A DNA stretch of 35,996 nucleotides. Source: Flavobacteriia bacterium. Lineage in GTDB: Bacteria; Bacteroidota; Bacteroidia; Flavobacteriales; Schleiferiaceae. Location: NCBI GenBank assembly GCA_949516455.1, contig CATILC010000040.1, positions 1-35,996 of the forward strand, in the 5' to 3' direction. Positions 28,211-35,996 of this stretch are shown one piece after another (position 1 is the first letter of the stretch; every line of letters starts with the position of its first letter). A program made the position numbers and the translations under genes. Under the pieces are notes generated by a model. The model was not told the DNA's origin and searched no databases. It saw only the letters and a list, made by a program, of their open reading frames with translations.

Positions 28211-28298
28211 GTGGCTTTTTTAATCGCAAGCAAAGTAATTGAAGTCTGACGAAAAAGCCCCTGCTCTTCCATTGCTACAATTTTGATATTTGCAACTC

Positions 28299-30455
28299 AT
28301 GCGCTTTCGGCATTTACATATCGTTTTCCTGCTTATCGGGATCGCAGGATCCCTGAGGGCGCAGCCTATCGAATTGTCCGATCTTTCGTCAGGCAATCCA
28401 CGGCTCATCGGGGATCGGGCAGAATACATTGCTGACCGCAGTCACCAATTGGACTGGGAGGATCTGTCTTCTGTAGAAATGAAGCCATCGGACCAAGCGG
28501 TGATCACCTTTTCCGAGGCCTCCACGACCTACTGGTTTCGATTCCGTCTGCACTCGAATCAATCTATAGATGGAAACTACGTACTGGACATTCGCAATCC
28601 ATTGCTCGATTCGGTAGATGTGTATCTCGTCCAGTCCGGGCAACTCATTCGCTCTTACCACACGGGTGACCGACATCCCTACAAGAGCAGGCCGCTCGAA
28701 TACAATTCGTTTGCCTTCCCGATCTTTTCTCTGCAGGAAGGAGAATTCGAGATCCTTGTTCGGATCCGATCGACCGATCAGTTGCTGATCCCCTTCTACT
28801 TGGGCGAATCCCATTGGGTGTCGGCCATCAAGAACAATCAGGAACTTATTTTCGGCATATACATCGGGCTCATGCTCGTCATGTATCTATACAACGGCTT
28901 CATTTGGATATCCACGAGGGACAATGCCTATCTCTACTATGTCTCCTATGTGGGCTGTCTAATGATGGCGCAAATGATCCTCGAGGGAACTGCTTTTCAC
29001 CGGTTGTTTCCCGAAAGTCCGGAAATACACAATTTCGGGGTGGTTCTCTTCAGTGCATTGACGGGGTTGGCGGCCATCAAATTCACCCGAAAATTCCTCA
29101 ATCTCAAGGTCAGAGCGCCACGGTTGAGCAATGGTCTGTACCTCTTTGAAGGCCTGTATGTACTGGCTGTAATATTCCGCCTATTTGGCTTGTATGCCCT
29201 GAGCTTTCGAATGCTGGATGTCGGTGGGCTTCTGTCGTCCCTGTATGTGCTCGGCCTCTCCATTGCGCTGGTCCGCAAAGGATTTTCTGAAGCCAAATTC
29301 TATTTGGTCGCCTGGATATTCTTCATCCTCGGTGTCCTGGTCTACGTCTTGAAGAATTTTGGCTTGCTGCCTTTCAATACGCTGACAAGCAGCGCCATTC
29401 AAATTGGTTCAGCGATCGAGATCGTACTGCTCTCTTTCGCACTGGCCAACAGGATCAACAGATTGAGAAGGGAAAGAGAACAAGCCCAAAGAGAGCGATT
29501 GGAGGTGACCCGGGAAAACGAGCGGCTGATCAAGGAACAAAATGTGGTGCTGGAGCAAAAGGTCGAAGAGCGAACCAACGAATTGGAGGAGACGCTCAGC
29601 GACCTGAAGGAGACACAGGCCCAGCTGGTGGACGCAGAGAAAATGGCCTCCCTCGGACAATTGACAGCTGGAATCGCCCACGAGATCAACAATCCCATCA
29701 ATTTTGTTTCCTCCAACATTTCGCCTTTGAAGAGGGACATCAAAGACATGTTGGACCTGATCGAGAATTACGAGCGACTTGAAGATGCCGATCTCAAAAA
29801 GGAACAGAGGCATGCGATCCTCGAGGAGATCAAGGACTTCAAGGAAGAGATCGACCTGAGTTTCCTCAAAACAGAAATAGACGCTCTCCTGGACGGCATT
29901 GATGAGGGCGCAACTCGAACGGCAGGGATCGTCAGCAGTTTAAAGACCTTTTCGCGTTTGGATGAAGAGGATTTCAAAGACACGAATATCGAAGAGGGGA
30001 TCGACTCGACTTTGGCCATCCTGAACTCGAAGATCAGCGGTCAGATCGAACTGGTGAAGGAATACGCGGGCTTGCCTCTGGTCTATTGCAATTCTGGGAA
30101 AATGAATCAAGTATTCATGAATCTATTGAGCAATGCCATTTTTGCGATCAACGAGAACCGCTCGCAAGGGCATATCGACCATGGTTTGCTTACTGTGCGT
30201 ACGAGGGAGTCCAAGAGCAGCTACATGATCGAGATCGAGGACAACGGCATAGGCATGAGCGACGAAGTCAAACAAAAGATCTTTGAGCCCTTCTTTACAA
30301 CCAAAGAAGTAGGAGAAGGCACCGGGCTCGGACTGTCGATCGTCTACACCATTCTGCAGGAGCATCAGGCCAAAATGACCGTTGTTTCCGAAGAAAAGAA
30401 GGGAAGCCGGTTCAAGTTGAGTTTGCCGAAAGATCTAGAATCCAGGACCTCATGA
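28299..30455 (+). CDS. 7TMR-DISM sensor histidine kinase
   Basis: The protein has 718 residues from the ATG at 28299; a TTG three codons earlier is less likely. A signal peptide ([21 protein letters not shown]) precedes a periplasmic 7TMR-DISMED2-type beta domain (about 25-165). Seven transmembrane helices of the 7TMR-DISM type follow (about 180-385), with [20 protein letters not shown] coiled coil (385-445) leads to HisKA with phosphoacceptor H461 in [15 protein letters not shown], then HATPase with N box [46 protein letters not shown]. It heads a three-gene relay; its stop overlaps the next start as ATGA. Ligands of such domains are often carbohydrates, but none is implied here. Confidence 0.93.
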
Positions 30456-31546
30456 TCGTCGATAAGAACATACGTGTGCTTTACCTTGACGATGAGCCAT
30501 CAAACCTCAATTCGTTTCGCGCCGCATTCAGAAGGCAATTCACCGTATATGTGACGGACAACCCCGACGATGCCCTGGAATTGGTAAGAGAAAAAAGACC
30601 GCAGTTGGTCTTCTCCGATCAACGGATGCCCGAGGTGAATGGAACAGATTTTCTGCGCACCGTTCACGAGCTGGACAGCAACACCATCAGGGTGCTGATC
30701 ACAGCGTATACAGATGCAGCAGAGATCATCAACGCGATCAACCGGGGACGCATTTACCGATTCATTTCCAAGCCGTGGAATGAAGAAGAATTGCGGCAGA
30801 CCATCATCAACGGCTACGAAATACATTCTACACGCAGAAAGCTGGAAGAGAAAGTCGAAGAACTTGAAAAGACAAATGAGGAGCTCAATAAGTTCATCTA
30901 CAGTGCTTCCCACGATCTCAGGGCACCGCTCATGTCGATCCTCGGAGTGGTCAAACTCTCCGAGCTCGATCCACTGGACGAGGGCGCCCGCAATCTATTT
31001 CAGTTGATCGAGAACAGTGTGATGCGTATGGACGCCTTCATTTCAAGCATCATTGAATACTATCAAAATACGCGAAGCGAAAAAGAACTCAAGGAGATCG
31101 ACTTTCGAGGACTGGTCGATGAGATCCTCGGGAATTTGAAATTTTTCGAGGGCGCTCGTGAGATGCAATACGACCTGCGCATCGATACGTGCCCAGGCTT
31201 TGTAACAGACCTCTTCCGCTTGCGCATTGTCTTGAGCAATCTGATATCCAATGCCATGAAATTCAATCGCCTCGATCCAAAAGAGCACAGGGTGGGCATT
31301 GAGATCATTTGCAACGAATCAGAGGTAAAACTCAAGGTGGAGGACAATGGACTCGGCATTGCGGAAGATCAAAGAGAGCTCGTGTTCAATATTTTCCATC
31401 GAGCGGATGCCAAAAAGAGCGGTTCAGGTATCGGCCTTTACATAGTGAAGGAAGCACTCGAAAAGTTGAATGGCAGCATCGAACTCGAATCCATTCCCAA
31501 CCAAGGCAGCACTTTTTCCTGCACCATCCCCAACCTCAAAAAATGA
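30452..31546 (+). CDS. REC-HisKA-HATPase hybrid histidine kinase
   Basis: A cytosolic protein of 364 residues with an N-terminal receiver and a C-terminal kinase, with no membrane segment. The receiver (about 1-125) has D13/D14, phosphoacceptor D56 in LVFSDQRMPEVNG, Thr84 in VLITAYTD and K107 in YRFISKPWNEEEL. The linker (128-147) is a coiled coil. The kinase has H154 in FIYSASHDLRAPLMSILGVV, then an ATPase with NLISNAMKFN, VEDNGLGIAEDQR, GSGIGLYIVKEALEKL. The design suggests the kinase is switched by phosphorylation of its own receiver, probably by the upstream 7TM kinase. It overlaps genes on both sides by ATGA. Confidence 0.93.
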   Translation: MIVDKNIRVLYLDDEPSNLNSFRAAFRRQFTVYVTDNPDDALELVREKRPQLVFSDQRMPEVNGTDFLRTVHELDSNTIRVLITAYTDAAEIINAINRGRIYRFISKPWNEEELRQTIINGYEIHSTRRKLEEKVEELEKTNEELNKFIYSASHDLRAPLMSILGVVKLSELDPLDEGARNLFQLIENSVMRMDAFISSIIEYYQNTRSEKELKEIDFRGLVDEILGNLKFFEGAREMQYDLRIDTCPGFVTDLFRLRIVLSNLISNAMKFNRLDPKEHRVGIEIICNESEVKLKVEDNGLGIAEDQRELVFNIFHRADAKKSGSGIGLYIVKEALEKLNGSIELESIPNQGSTFSCTIPNLKK

Positions 31547-31958: not shown

Positions 31959-33539
31959 TCAGTCTTCGGACTTGAGTCGGAATTGCAGCTTATCGTACTT
32001 CTCTATGGCCATCTGGAGACTGAAAGACGAATCTGCCAAATACACCAATCGTTCAAATTTGTCACGGGCGATGAAACGCTGTTTGAGTTTTTTGAATTCC
32101 TCAAGCTGACGCTCATCCTCAGAAGTCAGCCAGCATGCTTTGTGTGCCGGATAGGGCTCATAGCTGCATCGAGCACCGTACTCGTTTTCCAGTCGATATT
32201 GAATGACCTCGTATTGCAACGCCCCCACCGTGCCAATGATCTTCCTTCCATTGGACTCAAGGATGAATAGCTGGGCAACCCCCTCGTCCATCAGCTGATC
32301 GATACCCTTGGCCAACTGCTTGGATTTCAGCGGATCCTCATTGTTGATGAAGCGAAAATGTTCGGGGCTGAAACTTGGTATTCCTTTGAAGTTCAAAGAT
32401 TCTCCGCTGCTCAGACCGTCACCGATCCTGAAATTGCCTGTGTCGTGGAGCCCGATGATATCCCCAGGATAGGCCCGATCCATAATGGCCTTGCGGGAGG
32501 CCATAAAAGTGGTCGGACTGGAGAACTTGAGGTCTTTACCCAGGCGTACGTGCTTATAGGGTTTGTTTCTTTCGAACACCCCTGACACAACTTTTACAAA
32601 AGCCAGGCGGTCCCTGTGTTTGGGGTCCATATTCGCATGGATCTTGAAAACGAAACCAGAGAAGCCTTTTTCATTGGGGTGAACGATCCGTTCTTCTGCC
32701 ATTTTCGGCTGGGGATGGGGGGCGATCCGAACGAAGCCTTCCAAGAGATCTTGCACGCCAAAATTATTCAAGGCACTTCCGAAGAAAACAGGGGATTGTT
32801 TGCCTTGCTGGTATGCCTCCACATCAAATGATGGATATACACCCTGGATCAATTCCGCTTCTTCTTTGAGCTGTTCAAATGCTGGCTGCCCCAGAAAGTC
32901 CGCAAAGCGGATATCTTTGAGTCCATTCAATTCCACCTGCTCCCCTACCTTCTGCTTGAGCTGCTCGGTAAAGAGCAACAACCTGTCGTCCTGGAGATTA
33001 TAAACGCCCTGAAAATCCTGACCCATCCCAATGGGCCAACTCATCGGCGTCACATTCAGACCGAGTTTCTGCTCCACTTCATCGAGCAGGTCGAAGGCGT
33101 CTCTGCCCTCCCGATCGAGTTTATTGATGAAAATGATCAGCGGTATGTTGCGCATCCGGCTCACTTCCACCAATTTTTCGGTCTGGGCTTCCACTCCCTT
33201 GGCCACATCGATCACAACAATCGCAGAATCGACAGCAGTCAGCGTTCGGTAGGTGTCTTCTGCAAAATCCTGGTGACCCGGTGTATCGAGGATATTGATC
33301 TGTCGGCCTTGGTATTCAAAGGCCATAACCGATGTAGCCACAGAAATACCTCTTTGCTTTTCGATCTCCATGAAATCGGAGGTGGCGGTTCTCTTGACCT
33401 TATTTGATTTGACCGCACCCGCTTCTTGGATGGCTCCGCCAAAAAGAAGAAGTTTTTCTGTTAAAGTGGTCTTCCCCGCATCTGGATGAGAGATGATTCC
33501 AAAGGTCCTTCTGCGCTTGATTTCTTCTTCGGGCGACAT
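31959..33539 (-). CDS. prfC: Peptide chain release factor 3
   Basis: RF3 is a GTPase that removes RF1 and RF2 from the ribosome after termination. The protein has 526 residues, full length. The P-loop is SHPDAGKTT (17-25), switch II region is ILDTPGHQDF, the guanine motif is INKLDREGRD. RRRTFGIISHPDAGKTTLTEKLLLFGG and the following ATSDFMEIEKQRGISVATSVM distinguish it from EF-G. The C-terminal domains contain VGALQYEVIQYRLENEYG. It sits between the relay operon and the carotenoid region on the opposite strand. Confidence 0.97.
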   Translation of the reverse strand: MSPEEEIKRRRTFGIISHPDAGKTTLTEKLLLFGGAIQEAGAVKSNKVKRTATSDFMEIEKQRGISVATSVMAFEYQGRQINILDTPGHQDFAEDTYRTLTAVDSAIVVIDVAKGVEAQTEKLVEVSRMRNIPLIIFINKLDREGRDAFDLLDEVEQKLGLNVTPMSWPIGMGQDFQGVYNLQDDRLLLFTEQLKQKVGEQVELNGLKDIRFADFLGQPAFEQLKEEAELIQGVYPSFDVEAYQQGKQSPVFFGSALNNFGVQDLLEGFVRIAPHPQPKMAEERIVHPNEKGFSGFVFKIHANMDPKHRDRLAFVKVVSGVFERNKPYKHVRLGKDLKFSSPTTFMASRKAIMDRAYPGDIIGLHDTGNFRIGDGLSSGESLNFKGIPSFSPEHFRFINNEDPLKSKQLAKGIDQLMDEGVAQLFILESNGRKIIGTVGALQYEVIQYRLENEYGARCSYEPYPAHKACWLTSEDERQLEEFKKLKQRFIARDKFERLVYLADSSFSLQMAIEKYDKLQFRLKSED

Positions 33540-33640: not shown

Positions 33641-34555
33641 GTGGAAGTTCAATACAGCATTAGCGACCTGGAGCGCATCAGCGGCGTGAAAGCACATACC
33701 ATTCGCGTATGGGAAAGTCGCTACGGACTGATCATTCCGCAGCGTACTGAAACCAATATTCGTTTCTATTCAGACGGCGACCTCAAGAAGATCATGAATG
33801 TGGCTTTCCTTGTGAATACTGGATTGCGCATCAGCAAAGTTGCTGGTATGACGGACAAGGAGCAGCGGGCGTTGGTTCTCGATAAGTCAAACGGAGGTCA
33901 CGACCACCAGGGCACTTTGACGGCCCTTAAAGTTTCCATGATCGATTACGACCAAGACACCTTTGAACGCATCCTCAACCGTTGCCTGTTGAATATGGGC
34001 GCAGAGGAGGCCTTCAATTCGGTTTTGGGTGATTTCATTCGGCATCTGGGAATCTTGTGGCAAACGGGCGCGATCAACGTGGCCCACGAGCACTTTGTGA
34101 CAGGCATCATCAAACAGAAGCTCTTCTCGCTGATCGATCAGCTTACCGTCGCCCCATCGGCCCACTCCAAAAGGCACTTGCTCTTTTTGCCCGCTGGCGA
34201 ATTGCATGAGCTTGGATTGCTCTACATTCATTTCCTCCTGAGAAAGAACGGTCAGTCCAGTCTGCTTCTGGGACAGGACGTGCCCATCGAATTCGTCAAG
34301 GAGGCGGCCGATAAATTCGAGCCCGAAGTCATTGTAAGCATATTCACGACCCACCCTGAAGAGGAGAACGTCGAAAATTACCTCCACGAACTCGGTTCTA
34401 CATTTCCCGAAAAGAAAAAGCAGTTCTTTTTGGCCGGTTATCCCCTGCGCAACTTCCGGGGGCCACTCAACGACAAGCGCGTGAATCTATTCCGTACCAT
34501 GGAAGATCTGCGCTCCTTCGTGGTGAACACCTACGCTGTAAAGCAGTCTACATAA
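33641..34555 (+). CDS. MerR-family regulator with B12-binding domain (CarH/LitR-like)
   Basis: The protein has 304 residues from a GTG start. The MerR helix-turn-helix (about 5-75) begins YSISDLERISGVKAHTIRVW and has ESRYGLIIPQRTETNIRFYS. A helical cap domain (about 90-175) contains W140-QTGAINVAH-E150-H151, an exact W-x9-EH motif. The cobalamin-binding domain (about 177-300) contains E187-L-H189-E-L-G192, an exact ExHxxG motif in which His189 should be the lower cobalt ligand. Together these are the hallmarks of adenosylcobalamin-dependent photoreceptor repressors of the CarH/LitR family. The residue after the Trp is Gln141, where, as I recall, Thermus CarH has the light-state His ligand. 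It lies 117 bases upstream of the sigma factor gene and likely represses that gene through the repeats described separately. Confidence 0.9.
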   Translation: MEVQYSISDLERISGVKAHTIRVWESRYGLIIPQRTETNIRFYSDGDLKKIMNVAFLVNTGLRISKVAGMTDKEQRALVLDKSNGGHDHQGTLTALKVSMIDYDQDTFERILNRCLLNMGAEEAFNSVLGDFIRHLGILWQTGAINVAHEHFVTGIIKQKLFSLIDQLTVAPSAHSKRHLLFLPAGELHELGLLYIHFLLRKNGQSSLLLGQDVPIEFVKEAADKFEPEVIVSIFTTHPEEENVENYLHELGSTFPEKKKQFFLAGYPLRNFRGPLNDKRVNLFRTMEDLRSFVVNTYAVKQST

Positions 34556-34580: not shown

Positions 34581-34666
34581 TTGTTTAATTCTTTGTGTTA
34601 AATATTAAACAAAACCTTGGCTCCCTGCCTTTCTTGTTTAACTTCGTCCCTGTAAAGATTAAACAA
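34581..34666. promoter_or_regulatory. Four-half-site TTGTTTAA / TTAAACAA operator array
   Basis: TTGTTTAA lies at 34581-34588 and 34634-34641; its exact reverse complement TTAAACAA lies at 34605-34612 and 34659-34666. They form two inverted pairs with 16 and 17 bases between half-sites. The second pair starts 53 bases after the first, about five turns of DNA. A further near-palindrome, TGTTAAATATTAAACA (34596-34611), overlaps the second half-site and has one mismatch from perfect symmetry. The last half-site ends six bases before the sigma ATG. A regulator bound here would cover the promoter and leader of the sigma gene. The adjacent MerR protein is the obvious candidate. Confidence 0.7.
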
Positions 34667-34672
34667 ACGGCT

Positions 34673-35179
34673 ATGTCTACCATCGAATTCAACCGCTTGA
34701 TCGTCTCTCACCAAGAGTTTCTCAACCAACTGGCTATGAAACTGACCAAGAGTGTAGACGATGCAGAAGACCTCCTGCAGGATACGCTTTTCAAGGCTTT
34801 AAAGAATAAAGACAAGTATCAGGAGGGTACCAACCTGAAAGGCTGGCTTTACACGATCATGAAGAACACCTTCATCAATAACTACCGAAAGAAGAAAGTG
34901 CAGAACACCTTCATTGATGAAACAGACAACAAGTATTTCATCAACAGCAGAGAAGCCGAAAAGGACGCACGTACCGACTCAAGGGTGGATCGCGATTACC
35001 TCATGCGTCAGATCGACTCGGTGGATAAGCACTACGTGGACACTTTCATGATGCACTACAACGGGTACAAGTACGAAGAGATCGCTGAGATACTTGATAT
35101 TCCGCTTGGCACCGTGAAAAGTCGCATTTTCCTCGCTCGTCGTAAGATGATGGAGAAACTCATGGACTACCGAATCTGA
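34673..35179 (+). CDS. ECF-type RNA polymerase sigma factor
   Basis: A sigma-70 family factor of 168 residues. I took the ATG at 34673; a GTG at 34595 is in frame but lies inside the repeat array and would add 26 atypical residues. Sigma region 2 is at about 5-85: LTKSVDDAEDLLQDTLFKALKN and NLKGWLYTIMKNTFINNYRKKK. Region 4 is at about 115-165: HYNGYKYEEIAEILDIPLGTVKSRIFLARRKMMEKL, the helix-turn-helix that reads the -35 region. No anti-sigma gene follows; crtI begins 11 bases downstream. It is of the group usually found in flavobacterial carotenoid clusters and probably directs crt transcription. Confidence 0.92.
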   Translation: MSTIEFNRLIVSHQEFLNQLAMKLTKSVDDAEDLLQDTLFKALKNKDKYQEGTNLKGWLYTIMKNTFINNYRKKKVQNTFIDETDNKYFINSREAEKDARTDSRVDRDYLMRQIDSVDKHYVDTFMMHYNGYKYEEIAEILDIPLGTVKSRIFLARRKMMEKLMDYRI

Positions 35180-35190
35180 GCCGTCCTTTC

Positions 35191-35996
35191 ATGCCAAACC
35201 TCCCCCACGCATGTGTCATAGGCGCAGGATTTGCAGGCCTTTCTGCAGCTTCGCATCTTTCCAAAAAAGGCTTCCGAGTCACCCTGGTCGAGAAGAACGA
35301 TCAGGCCGGCGGCCGAGCGCGTCGCTTCGAGTCTGAAGGATTCACCTTCGACATGGGCCCCTCTTGGTATTGGATGCCCGATGTTTTCGATCATTTTTTC
35401 AACGCACTGGATTCGGAAACCCAGGCGCATTACGAATTAAAAAGGCTCGACCCATCTTATCGCATCTTTTTTGAAGGATCCGAAATAATGGATGTTCCTG
35501 CCTCCATGGATGAACTCTATGCCCTTTTTGAGCAGTATGAAAAAGGGAGCTCGAGGGCACTGAAGAAATTCCTCAAAGAAAGCGAATACAAGTACGATGT
35601 CGGGATCAACGACCTGGTGTACAAACCAAGCAGGTCTCTTCTGGAATTTGCTGATTCACGCGTACTCAAAGGGCTGTTCAAAATGGATCTGTTCTCATCC
35701 ATGAGCAGCTATATACGCAAACACTTCACCGACTCAAGGCTGATCCGACTGCTCGAGTTTCCTGTTCTTTTTTTGGGAGCCACAGCGAAAAAAACACCAG
35801 CTCTTTACAGTTTGATGAACTACGCGGATCTCTGTCTGGGCACTTGGTATCCCATGGGCGGAATGCACAAGATCGTAGAGGGAATGGTTCGTGTTGCAGA
35901 GGAAAAAGGAGTGGAACTTCGGCTCGATGAAGAGGTGACTGGATTTTCTTTCAAAGAGGACGGCACCATCGGCTCCATTCGTACTACAAAAGGAGA
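35191..35996 (+). CDS. crtI: Phytoene desaturase (3' end cut by window)
   Basis: A FAD-dependent enzyme that desaturates phytoene, the first coloured step of carotenoid synthesis, at the membrane. The first 268 residues are visible and the frame is open at the window end. The FAD motif is VIGAGFAGLSAASHLSKKGF (residues 9-28), followed by VTLVEKNDQAGGRARR and FTFDMGPSWYWMPDVFDHFF, which matches the CrtI family GPSW motif. GTWYPMGGMHKIVEGM near 225-240 corresponds to the conserved YPxGG region. It follows the sigma gene by 11 bases in one transcript. The next genes, if the usual cluster continues, would be crtB and a hydroxylase. Confidence 0.92.
   Translation, partial: MPNLPHACVIGAGFAGLSAASHLSKKGFRVTLVEKNDQAGGRARRFESEGFTFDMGPSWYWMPDVFDHFFNALDSETQAHYELKRLDPSYRIFFEGSEIMDVPASMDELYALFEQYEKGSSRALKKFLKESEYKYDVGINDLVYKPSRSLLEFADSRVLKGLFKMDLFSSMSSYIRKHFTDSRLIRLLEFPVLFLGATAKKTPALYSLMNYADLCLGTWYPMGGMHKIVEGMVRVAEEKGVELRLDEEVTGFSFKEDGTIGSIRTTKG

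Follow-up and report, generated by a model that had tools for sequence, protein, structure and literature searches.

The window analysed here is a stretch of 35,996 nucleotides (contig CATILC010000040.1, assembly GCA_949516455.1) from a Flavobacteriia bacterium of the Schleiferiaceae, whose draft genome comprises 276 contigs and 1.97 Mb and is 94% complete. Towards its end lies the gene for a CarH-like regulator of 304 amino acids (33641..34555, + strand, GTG start), recognised by its Pfam matches, its likeness to the Thermus protein TtCarH and its predicted fold. Two genes follow on the same strand. The first encodes an ECF sigma factor (34673..35179, likely ATG at 34673) that matches Pfam Sigma70_r2/r4 and scores over the cut-off of the NCBIfam sigma70-ECF model, while the second is the phytoene desaturase gene crtI (35191..35994), truncated by the contig end and over the cut-off of NCBIfam TIGR02734, with CrtID as the best match. 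The ECF sigma gene is the conserved next gene in the regulator family, and in most Bacteroidia loci either the sigma gene and then crtI, or crtI directly, stand downstream on the same strand whatever residue occupies the position equivalent to 141 of the regulator. The linkage to carotenoid genes that marks CarH/LitR class I is present in this arrangement. On the other side of the regulator are a sensor kinase gene (28290-30455), a gene for a receiver-histidine kinase protein (30452-31546) and prfC (31959-33539, minus strand).

The regulator combines a MerR-type helix-turn-helix (HTH), a B12-binding four-helix bundle and a B12-binding Rossmann domain, in that order. The N-terminal HTH matches PF13411 with 52.9 bits against a cut-off of 21.6, and the helix bundle, in which W140, E150 and H151 form the Wx9EH motif, matches PF02607 with 43.4 bits against a cut-off of 23. 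For the Rossmann half, PF02310 reaches 19.6 bits, under its cut-off of 32.1; of the motif D/ExHx2G/P-x41-SxT/V-x22-27-GG, the ExHxxG element is present, the Ser has no clear placement in the alignment, the first Gly of the GG pair is Ala265, and the fold itself is predicted. An AlphaFold model built from 41 aligned relatives has a pLDDT of 90. When submitted to Foldseek, it returns full-length TtCarH (5C8D, E 7e-16) as the top match and the CtMerR domain of Chloracidobacterium as the best match outside Thermus, and TtCarH is the best solved relative. Against the NCBIfam CarH equivalog NF052513, the regulator scores 95.2 bits, short of the curated cut-off of 400.

A preliminary description of this DNA had assigned W140, E150/H151 and H189 to adenosylcobalamin binding, and both the numbering and the alignment to TtCarH bear this out. 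By phmmer and MAFFT alike, Trp140 (34058..34060, + strand as for all codons given here), which caps the adenosyl group, corresponds to W131, Glu150-His151 (34088..34093) to E141-H142, and His189 (34205..34207), the lower cobalt ligand within the E187-L188-H189 part of the ExHxxG motif (34199..34207), to H177. Leu188 stands in for the interface residue Arg176 of TtCarH. All four of W140, E150, H151 and H189 are invariant in 30/30 family members with identities down to ~36-46%, which indicates that the adenosyl pocket is under selection. Several close CarH-like proteins with an intact pocket (L039, L064, L068, L078, L084 and L100 are examples) come from loci where no flanking sigma or crtI gene was found.

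The same description drew attention to the residue after the cap Trp, noting that a His at this site in the Thermus protein becomes a cobalt ligand after light. This agrees with the published account of TtCarH, in which His132 is the upper cobalt ligand of a bis-His light state (PMC10442372). Both aligners place Gln141 (codon CAA, 34061..34063) on His132 and no other His at the 132 site. The description had treated this Gln as a peculiarity of one protein; instead, it proves to be the norm of its class. Gln141 is invariant in the query and 29 fetched relatives of its own family (30/30) and is among 24 invariant positions within residues 90-275 of those sequences. Across 152 Bacteroidia proteins with an intact pocket, Gln occupies the 132 site in 108 and His in none, the rest being mostly Leu, Ile, Val or Met. 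An even sample of the phylum gives a similar distribution for 72 Bacteroidia proteins with intact W/E/H/H (Q 46, L 9, I 3, M 3, V 3, T 2, G 2, and A, S, R and D one each), again with no His. In a second collection, the best 80 contigs ranked by similarity to the query yielded 79 intact pockets (Q 61, L 14) and no His. A sequencing or assembly error that turned a His codon into CAA could be imagined, as CAA is one third-position base away from CAC or CAT and the genome is a draft. Since the query and all 29 relatives carry Gln, as do the 108 class members, such an error has a negligible chance of being the explanation and was rejected.

In a FastTree phylogeny, the Bacteroidia form a clade of 151 rows in which the 132 site is never His. 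At least 9 to 16 changes of the Gln label, mostly against hydrophobic residues, are required when the entire tree is considered; the site thus tolerates change inside Bacteroidia, with no return to His found. Beyond Bacteroidia, relatives on plasmid records have H (Thermus), R (Caballeronia), E (Eleftheria) and A (Comamonas and Rhizobium), and eight deep relatives in the same GTDB phylum have K in three, R in two, and E, N and H; this census is small and biased towards the query, so that no frequencies can be derived from it. A search of viral contigs found no relatives. Separately, the W/E/H/H pocket is partly lost in CarH-like paralogues at five loci; these paralogues may be independent of B12, as is CarA of Myxococcus. 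The Gln amounts to a mild variant of a kind already known and is ordinary within its class, although no description of the class-wide fixation of a His-less form was found in the open-access literature.

Another suggestion of the preliminary description was that a different residue may serve as the ligand. Under this explanation, His149, His151 or Gln141 would move onto cobalt after light and the protein-ligated state would drive disassembly. His149 (34085..34087), two residues ahead of His151, is the nearest candidate, and in a raw table of the class it accompanies Gln141 in 46/55 cases. Yet residue 149 is H in 18 and N in 12 of the 30 family sequences, and mostly Q among the 152 Bacteroidia proteins (Q 90, H 49, N 10). 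The coupling to Gln141 moreover finds no support from independent phylogenetic pairs. His151, the histidine of the EH pair, is also found in TtCarH and CtMerR and is not reported there as a cobalt ligand. In the class alignment only H151 and H189 are conserved among the histidines of the B12-binding domain, and the idea of a conserved substitute His was dropped. A ligand exchange of this kind is improbable.

Two inverted repeats within the 117-bp gap between the regulator gene and the ECF sigma gene are predicted operators. The first, TTGTTTAA-N16-TTAAACAA, spans 34581..34612 (no strand), and the second, TTGTTTAA-N17-TTAAACAA, spans 34634..34666 and lies 7 bp ahead of the likely start codon (ATG) of the sigma gene. 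Exact matches to TTGTTYAA-N15..17-TTRAACAA in the 1.97-Mb assembly are limited to these two, and a search of the same genome for the 16-bp-spaced repeat with up to two mismatches gave no further copies. When the gap was shuffled 100,000 times with dinucleotides preserved, no shuffle held two repeats, and paired repeats 53-56 bp apart recur in four relatives (L221, L228, L229 and L235). Near CarH-like genes, with one mismatch allowed per half, a half-site distance of 24 was seen 134 times against 0.3 expected and a distance of 25 was seen 32 times against 0.0 expected, the expected counts being derived from distant flanks. At the same tolerance, the repeat is present at 104/176 CarH-like loci. 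The Bacteroidota-type -7 box has the form TAnnTTTG. Of 128 distinct repeats, 37 have it adjoining the right half-site in the orientation of the downstream gene and 0 in the opposite orientation, and the repeat thus overlaps a promoter as expected of a repressor site.

Known CarH operators of the direct-repeat type are tandem 11-bp nnnnTnnACAn units at the promoter with the core TnnACA (PMC9304148). This tandem type was not matched at the regulator locus, which has inverted repeats instead; the half-site contains TAAACA, which fits the TnnACA core, with the halves inverted and 24/25 bp apart. In a hand tally of 79 genomes of the order, 39 have a CarH-like gene, and 23 of these carry the 32/33-bp repeat, against 4 of the 40 that lack the gene (Fisher p = 4e-6, from a test that ignores relatedness and genome size). 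Co-occurrence, position and the TnnACA core together suggest that the CarH-like protein binds the inverted repeat.

Inverted repeats are bound by Myxococcus CarA (PMC9304148), a B12-independent member of the CarH family, and the regulator could in principle act in the same way, given a Rossmann half divergent enough to leave PF02310 below its cut-off. CarA, however, lacks the Trp of Wx9EH. This hallmark was not seen in the 30 family sequences, where Trp140 is invariant together with the E, the H and the lower His, and a B12-independent regulator is accordingly a rather remote prospect. As for the cofactor, the assembly encodes a PduO-type adenosyltransferase (L182:1495-2037), a methylmalonyl-CoA mutase with a MeaB-type gene and an IcmF-like fragment read by eye, so that adenosylcobalamin (AdoCbl) should be available. 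No PF02607 protein other than the CarH-like regulator was found in the 94% complete assembly, and a B12-dependent methionine synthase therefore appears to be absent.

Which genes the repeat might control was surveyed in related genomes, in 40 regions fetched around copies of the repeat, with one to four members of each gene cluster tested for naming and the others joined by BLASTP. A fasciclin-type cluster adjoins the repeat in 10 of the 40 (four positive out of five Pfam-tested) and a rhodopsin gene in four, two of them beside a blh-like gene, one of which was confirmed as blh by PF15461. Other neighbours include ECF sigma genes (in three genomes), crtI (2), TetR_C_23-type regulators (3), MsrA (2), photolyase (1), TspO (1) and an SRPBCC-like family (3) that was named by eye and has no Pfam match. 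Unrelated genes also adjoin repeats, and two repeats fall inside coding sequence. In other Flavobacteriales genomes, the repeat lies ~160 bp or less upstream of rhodopsin genes at four loci, fasciclin-type genes at six, MsrA at two, and photolyase and TspO at one each. With rhodopsin, photolyase, MsrA, crtI and fasciclin genes next to it, the repeat has the look of marking a regulon for light and photo-oxidative stress, and suggests one shared across Flavobacteriales. The complete proposal is a Bacteroidia branch of CarH without the bis-His switch, with TTGTTTAA-N16/17-TTAAACAA as predicted operator and a regulon of carotenoid genes, rhodopsin and its retinal-forming enzyme, photolyase, MsrA and fasciclin lipoproteins; we regard the chances for and against it as evenly balanced.

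No described regulator for light-dependent rhodopsin, photolyase or carotenoid genes in Flavobacteriales was found in the open-access literature, and the predicted operator and regulon name a candidate. They are the more useful result compared with the Gln itself. For Chryseobacterium lacus, carotenoid production in light has been reported even though no lit/car operon was recognised (PMC7064467), so a CarH-like protein is not necessarily behind every case of light-induced carotenoids in Bacteroidota.

How a His-less protein might respond to light can be judged from published relatives. In TtCarH, replacing His132 by Ala (H132A) yields a hydroxo-Co(III) species at 352 nm, and the variant stays for the most part tetrameric in light (PMC10442372). 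A protein without the His therefore need not switch well. According to the summary given in the same paper, another study saw H132A disassemble in light, which leaves the function of the upper His in CarH under dispute. PMC11796333 describes natural proteins without the 132 His, namely CtMerR with Arg, SasPcob with Gln (an assignment taken from that paper) and AbDPcob with Tyr, all of which retain photolysis of adenosylcobalamin. In that account, CtMerR passes from tetramer to monomer in light, and under anaerobic conditions its Glu reorients to cobalt via a water. Biliverdin-loaded SasPcob changes from dimer to monomer, and its Co(III) carries water or hydroxide (PMC10979010). The His is present in many myxobacterial CarH (PMC9304148), and the title of a 2016 paper, listed as a reference in PMC9758184, calls the upper His semi-conserved. 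The residue is not required of all CarH/LitR class I proteins, and the regulator has Gln141 in its place. The expectation of the preliminary description that the light-state structure may differ finds support by analogy with H132A, SasPcob and CtMerR. Counting partly against that description, a characterised domain with Gln, that of SasPcob, is photoactive.

The H132A tetramer and the absence of the His from the whole class allow another explanation, in which the regulator binds AdoCbl, stays assembled in light and reports AdoCbl supply or oxygen/redox state. Against this stand the light-driven monomerisation of His-less CtMerR, the conflicting H132A result and the position of the repeat before photolyase, rhodopsin/blh, MsrA and carotenoid genes, which argues for regulation by light. 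A protein without a light switch is unlikely, if the least so of the alternatives considered. What was observed directly are the residues with their conservation, the order of the genes and the repeats; that the regulator binds B12, responds to light and binds DNA is what we infer from them, and the open-access literature searched reports none of the three for any member in Bacteroidota. The explanation we consider probable is an AdoCbl-dependent, light-released repressor of the CarH/LitR kind whose His-less form is normal for Bacteroidia.

As to its mechanism, AdoCbl would bind base-off in the dark, His189 ligating the cobalt from below and the invariant Trp140, Glu150 and His151 capping the adenosyl group. 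The AdoCbl-loaded oligomer would then occupy the TTGTTTAA-N16/17-TTAAACAA repeats before the sigma and crtI genes and block transcription. As in the family, light would break the Co-C bond and the adenosyl group would depart. With Gln141 no bis-His adduct could form, leaving Co(III) with water or hydroxide above and His189 below, the former perhaps hydrogen-bonded through Glu150 in the manner described for CtMerR. By analogy with these relatives, a working B12 light repressor with a water/hydroxide-cobalt(III)-His189 light state, and not a bis-His one, is the likeliest form of the protein. Loss of the adenosyl group alone would loosen the oligomer, aided by an interface that lacks the Arg176-Asp201 pair of TtCarH, and the ECF sigma and carotenoid genes would be expressed. 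Because the absence of the His is normal throughout the class and His-less relatives are known to work, the proteins of the Bacteroidia probably switch in a way that departs a little from that of the textbook Thermus protein. A class that keeps the adenosyl pocket without the upper His also amounts to a natural experiment on the disputed role of this residue.

Several known systems resemble parts of this arrangement. In Streptomyces coelicolor, the CarH-type regulator LitR stands beside the ECF sigma factor LitS, which serves carotenoid genes; the host belongs to a different phylum, and the likeness considered here is that of gene arrangement. The regulator shares its family with Cystobacter CarH, which binds direct repeats as a dimer, and with Myxococcus xanthus CarA, which has inverted repeats in its operator but neither the B12 dependence nor the Wx9EH Trp. 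The photocobilin SasPcob (8J2W, 8J2X) has Gln at the 132 site and a light state with water/hydroxide on Co(III) (PMC11796333, PMC10979010); it differs in being no DNA-binding MerR protein, in its fused biliverdin-binding globin domain and in needing biliverdin for its oligomer change. CtMerR of Chloracidobacterium thermophilum (8JBS, 8JBT) is a MerR-type protein that keeps the adenosyl pocket without the 132 His, although it has Arg and not Gln, and its sequence match to the regulator is confined to the B12 domain. The most extensive likeness is to TtCarH/LitR (5C8D, 5C8E, 5C8F; 8C31-8C37), which shares the domain order, fold, W/E/H cap, lower His and adjoining carotenoid genes. At ~26% identity, it has His132 and Arg176 where the regulator has Gln and Leu, and its operator consists of three tandem 11-bp direct repeats (PMC9304148) as opposed to inverted ones. 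In Bacteroidia, Leu or Ile prevails at the Arg176 site (Leu188 in the query), Ser or Asn at the Asp201 site (where the query keeps Asp213) and Gln, Val or Pro at the Gly160 site (Thr169 in the query), and Ser or Thr mostly stands in for the first Gly of the GG motif (Ala265 in the query). As the class is without the Arg176-Asp201 pair and one Gly of the GG motif, its oligomer and nucleotide-tail pocket may differ from those of TtCarH, and such an interface could let adenosyl loss alone break the oligomer.
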